This document shows, piece after piece, positions 44,322 through 46,973 of a DNA stretch of 64,000 nt. Each line of letters begins with the position of its first letter. Within the stretch, counting starts at the first letter, position 1. This stretch comes from Candidatus Tepidifontimicrobium thermophilum (lineage in GTDB: Bacteria; Sysuimicrobiota; Sysuimicrobiia; Sysuimicrobiales; Sysuimicrobiaceae): contig JAVKKH010000007.1 of NCBI GenBank assembly GCA_031296405.1, positions 1 to 64,000 of the forward strand. The letters are read 5' to 3'. A model generated the notes under the pieces. The model had not been told where the DNA came from, did not search any database, and was given only the letters and a program-made list of their open reading frames with translations. Both the position numbers and the translations under genes were made by a program.

Positions 44322-44996
44322 GTGGGTGCAACCACGCGTCGGCGGACCCCACCCCTGGAACGGCTGACGCCCCGGGAGCGGGCGGTGGTGCGGTCGTGCG
44401 CCACGCCGGAGCGGGTCCAGCGGTGGCTCCGCCAGCTGCCGTACAACTGGGAGACCCGGCGCCCGACCCTGCGGTCGTTCCGGGGCGTGGTTCGCGTGGG
44501 GCAGGCCCACTGCCTGGAGGCGGTACTGGCCGCGGCGGCGGTGCTGGACCACCACGGGTACCCTCCCTGGGTCCTGGACCTGGAGTCGGAGGACGGACTG
44601 GACCACGTGGTGTTCGTGTTCCGGAAGGACGGGCGCTGGGGCGCGGTGGCCAAGTCCCGGGACGCGGGGCTGCACGGGCGCCGGCCGGTGTTCCGTACCC
44701 TCCGGGACCTGGTCTACAGCTACGTGGATCCCTACGTGGACGGCTCCGGCCGCATCGTGGGCTACGGGCTCGCGGACCTAGACGAACTGGTGCGGGTAGA
44801 CTGGCGGCTTTCGGAGGACGACGTCTGGGAGGTGGAGCGGGCACTGTTGCGCATGCCCCACAAGCGGCTGCACACCTCCGACCGGCGACACCGGGAGGTG
44901 CTGCAGCGCTACCTCCGTTGGAAAGAGCGTGGCGGACCGCTGGACCGCCGGGCCCTCCGTGAGCTGTACGGGCAGGCGGTGGACGCCTGGTGGTGA
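44322..44996 (+). CDS. Transglutaminase-like (papain-fold) protein of unknown function
   Basis: Protein of 224 aa. The pattern GQAHCLEAVLAAAAVLDHHG (Cys64), LDHVVFVF (His95) and VAKSRDAG (Asp114) matches the Cys-His-Asp order and spacing of the transglutaminase-like core. HGYPPWVLDL resembles the strand after the catalytic helix. No signal peptide or membrane segment. GTG 44322 has no good ribosome site, and an AT-rich patch (TATCTTATATAG) just upstream suggests a leaderless message. Starts 28 bases from the divergent Fur gene. Substrate unknown. Confidence 0.72.
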   Translation: MGATTRRRTPPLERLTPRERAVVRSCATPERVQRWLRQLPYNWETRRPTLRSFRGVVRVGQAHCLEAVLAAAAVLDHHGYPPWVLDLESEDGLDHVVFVFRKDGRWGAVAKSRDAGLHGRRPVFRTLRDLVYSYVDPYVDGSGRIVGYGLADLDELVRVDWRLSEDDVWEVERALLRMPHKRLHTSDRRHREVLQRYLRWKERGGPLDRRALRELYGQAVDAWW

Positions 44997-45021
44997 GCCG
45001 ATCCGGGTGCCGCCTAGCTAG

Positions 45022-46830
45022 CTAGTACCCCCGCAGGTTCAGCTGCACGAACACCGGGTACGCGCTGATCCCCGCAGGCAGGGCGAGGTCGTGGATGGGC
45101 GCGTGCAGGACGATCCACGTGATCACCTGCTGCCCCTGGATGGGCTCCCCGTCGGCGTACTGGCCCGGGTGGTAGAAACGGGTCTCCGCGGCCTCGTCCA
45201 GCACCCGCTTGGACCTGCCGATCTCCCCCCGCTTTGCCCGCACCACCGCCACTTCCACGTTCTCGTCCAGGGGGATCTCCACCGCCTCCGACCCCCTGGG
45301 GTTCTTGACCCGCACCACCATGCCGGGCCGCCCGACCACGTAGAACTCAGCCCGAGGGGAGGTCCACCGCCTCCCGTCGAACAGCTCCACCCGGACGCCC
45401 TGCGTCGTCCCGGGGGTGAGATCCAGGCCCCACACGGACAGGTAGCACTGGTACACGGAGGTGGGGCGGCGCACCCGCAGGAACTCCGTGACGTAACCGG
45501 GCCCGTTCCGCCGCCACTCCAGCCTCACCACACCGTCCGCGAAGAAGTCGTAGGCCACGTCGTAGTTGTAGGGGCCGAAACGGTGACCGGCGTGGAAGTC
45601 CTGCGCGTGGGGCAGCGCCCCGGTGTGGTAGTGCGAGCGCATCCGGAAGCCGCCGGGGTGATCCGCGGTGGCAGGGATCGGGATCTTCCCCAGCAAGCCC
45701 GGACCTCCGAAGTCTGCGCTGTGGATGTCCCAGTAGAGGAGTTCCCCCGCGAAGTACTTCGCTCCCTCCGGGAAGTACCAGCGGAGGGTGGGCCGTCCGT
45801 TCTGCGGCGGGAGGTTGTACCCGGTAAAGGTGAACTGCAGCAGGCTCCGGAGTACTGGCTTTCCCCGGAACCACGCGGAGACGTCCACCCCTTGCGTCTC
45901 GGGTGGGCTCCACCGGACCCTCCAGCGGTCCTGGGCGAACTCCCGGGGCGGCAGCTCCTGCCGGTGGAAGCCCTCCGGGGCAGTGTACCAAGGCCGCTTC
46001 GCGAAGGGGACCTCCGGCACCCTACCCAGCACGGACCTCGCCCTCGGCACGATCGCCCGCGCGAGCTCCTCGGAAGGATATTCCGTGAAGCGCCGGATGA
46101 CGTTGACGTCCACGACTTTCATGTTCTTCGGGTCCCGCACGTCCAGGAACACGCTCAGGACCGCTAGCTTCCCGTTCTCCTTGAAGTAGTAAATCGCGGG
46201 GGTGACCGTCCGCAGAGGCCGCTTCTTGTACGCGGTGATGACCTCCGCCACTTTCACCATGGGGTACCACGGCTTGCCCTCCAGCACCGCCTTGACCCTC
46301 GCGTCCTGCAGCACGACCCGGTGCCGAGCCACCGCGTCCGGACCCTCGTTCTTCGGAATCCGCTTCCACGTGACGTCCTTCGGTCTCGTGACCGTCAACG
46401 CCACGATCTGGTCATAGCGGCGGTCCACCAGGGCGTACACCACCTGGTGGCCGGCCGCGGTGATTTCGAACCCGTTCTCCAGGTCCCCTTGCACCCGCAT
46501 GTCCGTGGATCCCTGCAGGCTCACTGAGTCCAGGTCGTTGGTGAGCGGGTCGTAGGCTTCGAACGACGCGATCCAGCCGCGCGCGATACGGTTCACCTCG
46601 GGGTCCGCCAGCACCACCTCGACGGCCCTCCGCTGGCGGTAGAAGAAGAGGGACTTGTACGCGTCCCGCCCCACGTCCCGGGACGTGAGCAGGCGGGCGG
46701 TGGCGATGCGCGGGGAGACCGCTTGGGCTTCCCCAGCGGGCGGGGACGCAGCGTGCACGCCCGCTACCACCAACCCCGAGGCCAGCAGCAGAAACGAACG
46801 GATCCCCCGCAAGAGTCCCCCCATTCCCAT
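45022..46830 (-). CDS. Copper amine oxidase-like protein lacking the copper His pair
   Basis: Secreted protein (602 aa), signal peptide residues 1-29. The C-terminal two thirds follow the copper amine oxidase plan: PYNYDVAYDFFADGVVRLEW matches the TPQ segment, with Asn422-Tyr423-Asp424 conserved. The His-x-His copper pair expected next is Tyr460-Gln-Cys462 (SVYQCYLSVWGLDL). FYHPGQYADGE and TWIVLHAPIHDLAL match the final block with a His retained at 580. It is therefore probably not a functional copper amine oxidase. ATG 46830 follows GAGGGG. Stands alone between the transglutaminase-like gene and prpC. Confidence 0.72.
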   Translation of the reverse strand: MGMGGLLRGIRSFLLLASGLVVAGVHAASPPAGEAQAVSPRIATARLLTSRDVGRDAYKSLFFYRQRRAVEVVLADPEVNRIARGWIASFEAYDPLTNDLDSVSLQGSTDMRVQGDLENGFEITAAGHQVVYALVDRRYDQIVALTVTRPKDVTWKRIPKNEGPDAVARHRVVLQDARVKAVLEGKPWYPMVKVAEVITAYKKRPLRTVTPAIYYFKENGKLAVLSVFLDVRDPKNMKVVDVNVIRRFTEYPSEELARAIVPRARSVLGRVPEVPFAKRPWYTAPEGFHRQELPPREFAQDRWRVRWSPPETQGVDVSAWFRGKPVLRSLLQFTFTGYNLPPQNGRPTLRWYFPEGAKYFAGELLYWDIHSADFGGPGLLGKIPIPATADHPGGFRMRSHYHTGALPHAQDFHAGHRFGPYNYDVAYDFFADGVVRLEWRRNGPGYVTEFLRVRRPTSVYQCYLSVWGLDLTPGTTQGVRVELFDGRRWTSPRAEFYVVGRPGMVVRVKNPRGSEAVEIPLDENVEVAVVRAKRGEIGRSKRVLDEAAETRFYHPGQYADGEPIQGQQVITWIVLHAPIHDLALPAGISAYPVFVQLNLRGY

Positions 46831-46955
46831 CACCCCTCTTCGCTTCGGAAGCCCCCGGCGCGGACGGCAGTCAAAGTCTTCTGTTAATTCTCCCCACGGC
46901 CCGGAGGGTTCCTGTGCCCCTTCCAGGATCCCGCCCGGGCACCCGGGTAAGCACT

Positions 46956-46970
46956 GCCGGTGCGACCGGC
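46956..46970 (-). terminator. Hairpin just past prpC, possible terminator
   Basis: GCCGGT-GCG-ACCGGC lies 4 bases beyond the prpC stop, followed by a second GC-rich repeat (CCCGGG twice). No T-tract, so an intrinsic terminator is only tentative. The rest of the 143-base gap to 46831 shows no clear gene. Confidence 0.35.
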
Positions 46971-46973
46971 CTA

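Follow-up and report, generated by a model that had tools for sequence, protein, structure and literature searches.

The copper amine oxidases (CAOs), which form their own topaquinone cofactor in a copper-dependent reaction, are the textbook example of such self-processing, and the methylamine dehydrogenase system combines an enzyme carrying tryptophan tryptophylquinone (TTQ) with the MauG peroxidase and amicyanin. In the window analysed here, a stretch of 64,000 nucleotides from Candidatus Tepidifontimicrobium thermophilum (assembly GCA_031296405.1, contig JAVKKH010000007.1, positions 1 to 64,000), analysis of open reading frames (ORFs) identified a CAO-like gene on the minus strand that encodes a protein of 602 aa from the ATG at 46830 (Table 1). 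A GTG lies one codon upstream at 46833, and the ORF 45022-46833 opens GTG-ATG; residues are numbered throughout in the 602-aa form (the software used 603, one higher). The protein belongs to a family that consists mostly of haloarchaeal 'hypothetical proteins' and is undescribed. The best explanation for this family is that it descends from CAOs or has a common ancestor with them, and that the three-histidine copper site is gone, though this reading as a whole is tentative.

The family was examined in an alignment of 55 rows, 52 of them different; some rows were derived from one genome via two collections. It consists of a core of 43 rows, which includes this protein, six paralogues lacking the tyrosines described below (Tyr-less paralogues), the outgroup row L041 and five distant rows that form a clade of their own at ~23-25% identity. 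The alignment excludes L008, whose gene is fragmented, the repeated or partial copies L010-L012, L054, which matched by its signal peptide only, and additional hits of an eight-row family profile whose loci had not been fetched at the time of alignment.

In the profile alignment, the His-x-His copper ligands of CAOs fall exactly on Tyr460-x-Cys462, as proposed in the initial annotation of the gene, and both this segment and Asn422-Tyr423-Asp424 are present in the protein as numbered there. The alignment of homologues that had been suggested as a check extends this substitution, as His-x-His was found in none of the 55 rows, either at the position of the copper pair or one residue on, or in the stretch after the tyrosine, and loss of the copper pair is therefore a trait of the family. 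The third copper histidine, thought to be retained, is not conserved; residues 576 and 580 are both His in this protein and mostly Glu or Asp in other rows. Likewise, the topaquinone tyrosine pairs with Tyr421 (in P-Y-N) and not with Tyr423, the residue originally chosen. The strand that carries it, with its Asp-Gly turn, matches CAOs co-linearly, and the end points of a structural superposition (VIA-align) would fit the Tyr421 pairing as well, given the topaquinone residue numbers of known CAOs. Because Tyr421 is flanked by Pro and Asn, where the CAO consensus has Asn before and Asp/Glu after, because there is no His-x-His and the third His is mostly Glu/Asp, and because the stretch holding the CAO catalytic Asp falls in an alignment gap, topaquinone would not be expected to form by the known copper route. 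Position 355, near this gap, is Asp or Glu in 46/55 rows. Asp368 was considered as a catalytic base and dropped; the Tyr-less paralogues keep it, and a structural role is likelier. As defining features such as the three copper histidines are missing, the protein is not classed as a CAO.

A different set of residues is strictly conserved at this place. Tyr421, Tyr423, Tyr463 and His402 are invariant in the 43 core rows, in L041 and in the five distant rows, and Tyr463 adjoins the position of the copper-ligand pair. A total of 30 positions are conserved in the core (≥95%), in L041 and in at least 4/5 distant rows, and five of these (His402, Pro420, Tyr421, Tyr423 and Tyr463) are lost in all six Tyr-less paralogues, where Pro-Tyr-Asn-Tyr is replaced by Gln-Ser-Ser-His or Gln-Thr-Asn-His. 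None of the remaining 25 is lost in all six, and all five jointly lost positions map to the CAO active-site place. This clustering gave p = 7e-6 in a Fisher test in which the window around His402 was picked after viewing the data, and p = 1.8e-4 when only the topaquinone and His-x-His windows, set by the CAO mapping, were used; because all six paralogues belong to a single clade, their joint loss counts as one evolutionary episode. It marks these five residues out as a single functional unit, sited where the active site of CAOs would be. Two further histidines, His400 and His413, are present in 43/43 core rows and absent from 5/5 distant rows. The six paralogues (L047-L051 and L053) are all haloarchaeal and their genes are intact; this clade is the likelier pseudo-version.

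The relation to CAOs was assessed by comparison of profiles and models. With hhalign, 37 family rows matched 30 CAOs in the enzyme domain (Prob 89.4, P 2e-6) and 10 bacterial CAOs over 412 co-linear columns (Prob 90.8, P 1.2e-6), and control searches with reversed and eight column-shuffled CAO profiles gave Prob 0.1-0.3. AlphaFold2 models were built from an alignment of three sequences. When the full-length model was compared with the PDB using Foldseek, 7/7 matches at E≤0.001 were CAOs, and the first 14 rows returned by VIA-align were also CAOs, with residues 63-447 co-linear with residues 100-491 of E. coli amine oxidase. In the same low-confidence model, the D2/D3-like repeats superimposed on residues 92-183 of the E. 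coli enzyme over 71 residues at 3.1 Å. The order D2-D3-D4 is co-linear in Foldseek, VIA-align and the profile comparison, on models with a predicted local distance difference test (pLDDT) score of <40.

Several observations weigh against this relation, in addition to the gap at the catalytic Asp. The hhalign score depends on the rows used, and alternative row sets gave Prob from 2.3 to 11: leaving out the paralogues gave 11.0, or 10.0 confined to a C-terminal stretch when the comparison was with bacterial CAOs; the distant rows alone gave 10.7, and the core, paralogues and L041 without the distant rows gave 2.3. Against haloarchaeal CAOs, Prob was 5.1 (first set of 15) and 3.9 (20 sequences), and it was 4.6 after query and template were swapped. 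The curated cut-off of the Pfam CAO model PF01179 was not reached, its best score among the 37 relatives being a sub-threshold E of 0.041 in one of them, and neither Pfam nor NCBIfam had a match to the 602-aa protein at E≤10. Searches of PDB chains by sequence and profile returned weak unrelated matches only. The models are poor (pLDDT 37.8 for the full-length protein, 39.5 for the C-terminal part), the global template modelling (TM) score of the Foldseek CAO matches is 0.13, and the VIA-align Z of 6.4-7.8 lies below 8, with a warning by the tool that the arrangement may be a common one. For the C-terminal model alone, the Foldseek matches all lay above E 0.001 and the 50 listed included no CAO, and VIA-align ranked domains of GH97 (Z 6.0), a family of sugar enzymes with a supersandwich, slightly ahead of CAO (Z 5.0). 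Taken together, a remote CAO relation is likely, short of proven. A CAO-type architecture, as first proposed, is probable, but the relation is more distant than that description would imply.

In haloarchaea, the surroundings of the family genes fit an exported, amine-oxidising redox protein. Neighbourhoods were counted at 56 of 59 loci, as the family gene of L049, L050 and L128 was missed by the simple gene caller used. A DUF7405 gene is present at 17 of these, at 16 of them directly downstream on the same strand at a distance of 5-46 bp, while a halocyanin gene is found at 11/56 and an aldehyde dehydrogenase gene at 6/56. A plastocyanin-type domain is fused to the protein in 3/37 rows, N-terminally in L009, and haloarchaeal relatives have Tat/lipobox-like N-termini. 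On a plasmid of Halorubrum sp. PV6, the family gene lies between halocyanin and aldehyde dehydrogenase genes, near paaC, paaD and related genes, a layout that resembles the tynA-feaB-paa arrangement of E. coli. In one record, DUF7405 is labelled as a Dyp-type peroxidase; this protein scores 1.6e-147 against PF24152 and only 1.3e-4 against the C-terminal Dyp model. In the DUF7405 proteins (L113 7678-8952 and 16 similar genes), no Asp stands at the place where the Dyp GxxDG motif has one. A profile match between the family and DUF7405 (Prob 79.8) was set aside, as it spans only positions 7-34, the signal peptide.

Other points count against this reading. The neighbours vary by clade, and halocyanin and DUF7405 genes occur together only at L041 (1/56). 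DUF7405 is present in 346/391 haloarchaeal genomes, so its mere presence says nothing and its adjacency is what counts. In the window itself, neither halocyanin, DUF7405 nor aldehyde dehydrogenase is adjacent. Five plastocyanin-family matches were found elsewhere in the source genome, and an electron acceptor is therefore possible. The L041 locus (from G396) encodes a very divergent full-length relative, with the halocyanin and DUF7405 genes within 800 bp.

The protein is best seen as an exported redox enzyme without copper ligands that probably oxidises amines at a Tyr/His site, a favoured but still somewhat doubtful interpretation. It is probably such an enzyme rather than a dead one because a different strictly conserved Tyr and His set stands at the same place, and an enzymatic role is probable. 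In the rebuilt active site, Tyr421 would occupy the topaquinone position and Tyr463 the copper-ligand strand or a place next to it, with Tyr423 and His402 completing the set. The enzyme would act outside the cytoplasm, probably converting amines to aldehydes, with electrons passing to a blue copper protein or ending in peroxide. The redox chemistry, the amine substrate and the electron acceptor are presumed, as is any modification of a tyrosine or binding of another metal. A bolder and rather improbable version takes this copper-free branch of the amine oxidase superfamily as an extracytoplasmic dehydrogenase. Its Tyr cluster would become a quinone or a cross-linked cofactor through oxidation in trans, performed in one branch by the Dyp-like neighbour, much as MauG does for methylamine dehydrogenase, and a blue copper protein, fused or encoded nearby, would take up the electrons in place of O2.

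The initial annotation had suggested a secreted binding or structural pseudo-oxidase. Secretion is supported. A pseudo-oxidase in which the CAO scaffold binds a ligand or partner protein, with the Tyr/His set as its binding site, is unlikely, yet to be taken seriously; a different active site is the likelier reading, given invariant Tyr421, Tyr423, Tyr463 and His402 that are lost jointly only in the six paralogues. A pseudo-oxidase would account for the catalytic Asp not being found in the alignment and for the persistence of paralogues without the Tyr set as intact genes, but not readily for four redox-capable side chains that are invariant across clades ~25% identical, or for family members fused to or lying beside electron-transfer and peroxidase-like genes. 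Unlikely too, and given slightly less weight, is a different metal site, the alternative that the initial annotation also named: the protein would be an enzyme in which tyrosinates and a histidine at the former topaquinone/copper position bind iron, zinc or copper, much as tyrosinate-iron and copper-radical enzymes do. The co-conservation of three Tyr and one His, to which the core adds His400 and His413, agrees with a metal site of this kind, but only one His is kept in the distant clade.

The two explanations that do away with the loss of a copper site fare worse. That the family is no relative of CAOs and represents another beta supersandwich (galactose mutarotase/GH97-like), matched to CAOs by fold class, is improbable. 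The GH97 ranking of the C-terminal model, itself poor, and the sub-threshold Pfam CAO match are in its favour, but the N-terminal D2/D3-like repeats and the topaquinone strand with its Asp-Gly turn also match CAOs co-linearly. That the protein is an ordinary copper/topaquinone oxidase with misaligned ligands is scarcely credible. An invariant His-x-His (400/402) does precede the tyrosine in the core rows, but this pair is broken in the distant clade and the Tyr-less rows, none of the 55 rows has His-x-His in the stretch that follows the tyrosine, and Pro and Asn stand in for the consensus Asn and Asp/Glu.

Relatives at 46-47% identity were found in two haloarchaea by a genome scan, six haloarchaeal plasmid records carry relatives, and at E≤0.001 the eight-row profile matched 54/391 haloarchaeal genomes, in a few cases via signal-peptide stretches only. 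In a wider scan of the archaeal phylum, the long matches were confined to genomes from which the family was already known, and nearly all others were short and at signal-peptide positions. The 42 further genomes of the phylum to which the window belongs yielded no member, nor did viral contigs. There was no bacterial relative among 60 relatives and none in 10 genomes of one other phylum, though the scan of genome contigs relies on exact short peptides and distant bacterial relatives may escape it. PF01179 was not found in the source genome but in 16/194 haloarchaeal genomes, and those inspected have His-x-His. Haloarchaea thus also own true CAOs, and the family is therefore not simply their local version of a CAO. 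On a Natrinema plasmid (L008, 7839-9750), the family gene is split over different frames, an apparent pseudogene.

In two genomes of the same genus, the convergent genes that flank the CAO-like gene almost touch and the stretch between them is missing (Table 1). As the 42 further genomes of the phylum contain no family member, acquisition of one gene is a likelier history than repeated loss. In a tree, the protein stands on a long branch beside, not inside, the two haloarchaeal core groups, and with an isoelectric point (pI) of 9.67, where the family median is 4.39, it gives no sign of salt adaptation; neither feature supports a recent transfer from any of the haloarchaea sampled. Genes like prpD, prpB and citrate synthase lie upstream of it, in the same orientation. 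The segment 46974-53174 (minus strand) carries these methylcitrate-type genes (MmgE/PrpD, phosphoenolpyruvate (PEP) mutase/isocitrate lyase (ICL) family, citrate synthase) and, upstream of them, LutB/LutC-like genes, which were recognised by eye. The gene on the other side (44322-44996, plus strand) has a sub-threshold match (E 1.3e-4) to Vasohibin, a family of transglutaminase-like peptidases.

Table 1. Features of the CAO-like gene and its insertion site (window positions).
Feature	Position	Strand	Basis or remark
CAO-like gene, 602 aa	45022..46830	-	stop codon 45022-45024 counted in
Probable Sec signal peptide, residues 1-27, ending V-H-A	46750..46830	-	inferred from sequence
Residues 48-261, two alpha/beta repeats like CAO domains D2 and D3	46048..46689	-	low-confidence model and profile alignment
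Residues 291-602, CAO enzyme-domain-like beta supersandwich	45025..45960	-	profile alignment; weak structural matches
Asp368 in Tyr-Trp-Asp-Ile-His	45727..45729	-	present in all clades, Tyr-less paralogues included
His400-Tyr401-His402	45625..45633	-	His402 present in every clade but Tyr-less paralogues
His413	45592..45594	-	invariant in 43 core rows and L041, gone in distant clade
Pro420-Tyr421-Asn422-Tyr423	45562..45573	-	Tyr421 pairs with topaquinone tyrosine in profile alignment
Tyr460-Gln461-Cys462-Tyr463	45442..45453	-	position of CAO His-x-His copper pair; Tyr463 invariant except in Tyr-less paralogues
Single-gene insertion between convergent genes	45000..46973	.	missing from two same-genus genomes

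A family with the tyrosine but without the copper ligands, and with a new conserved set in their place, would show a re-tooling of the CAO scaffold, and would allow a test of whether modification of this tyrosine is possible in the absence of a copper site. The findings likewise offer a lead for a family of unannotated haloarchaeal proteins encoded beside electron-transfer and peroxidase-like genes. In the open-access library searched, no description of the family was found, including in PMC3382800 and PMC12058724, nor was there a paper combining amine oxidase, haloarchaea and topaquinone or one with DUF7405.

In common with the CAOs (PF01179; E. coli TynA, Hansenula HPAO, Arthrobacter AGAO), the family has the co-linear domain order, as judged by profiles and low-confidence structure, export, the tyrosine in the topaquinone strand and, on one haloarchaeal plasmid, aldehyde dehydrogenase and paa genes nearby. 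Unlike them, it has no His-x-His, no conserved third His, Pro/Asn as the flanks of the tyrosine, no catalytic Asp that could be found, a deletion around the base and no Pfam match above the cut-off. The methylamine dehydrogenase system is similar in that a cupredoxin gene neighbours the family genes in some clades and a peroxidase-like gene neighbours them in others (11/56 and 17/56 loci separately, together at one, L041), but its fold and cofactor are different and DUF7405 is only distantly Dyp-like. Plant copper amine oxidase (CuAO) clades without the T/S-x-x-N-Y-D active-site motif are, according to PMC12058724, CAO homologues; these are close homologues, whereas the proteins described here form a separate prokaryotic family with a Tyr/His set of its own.
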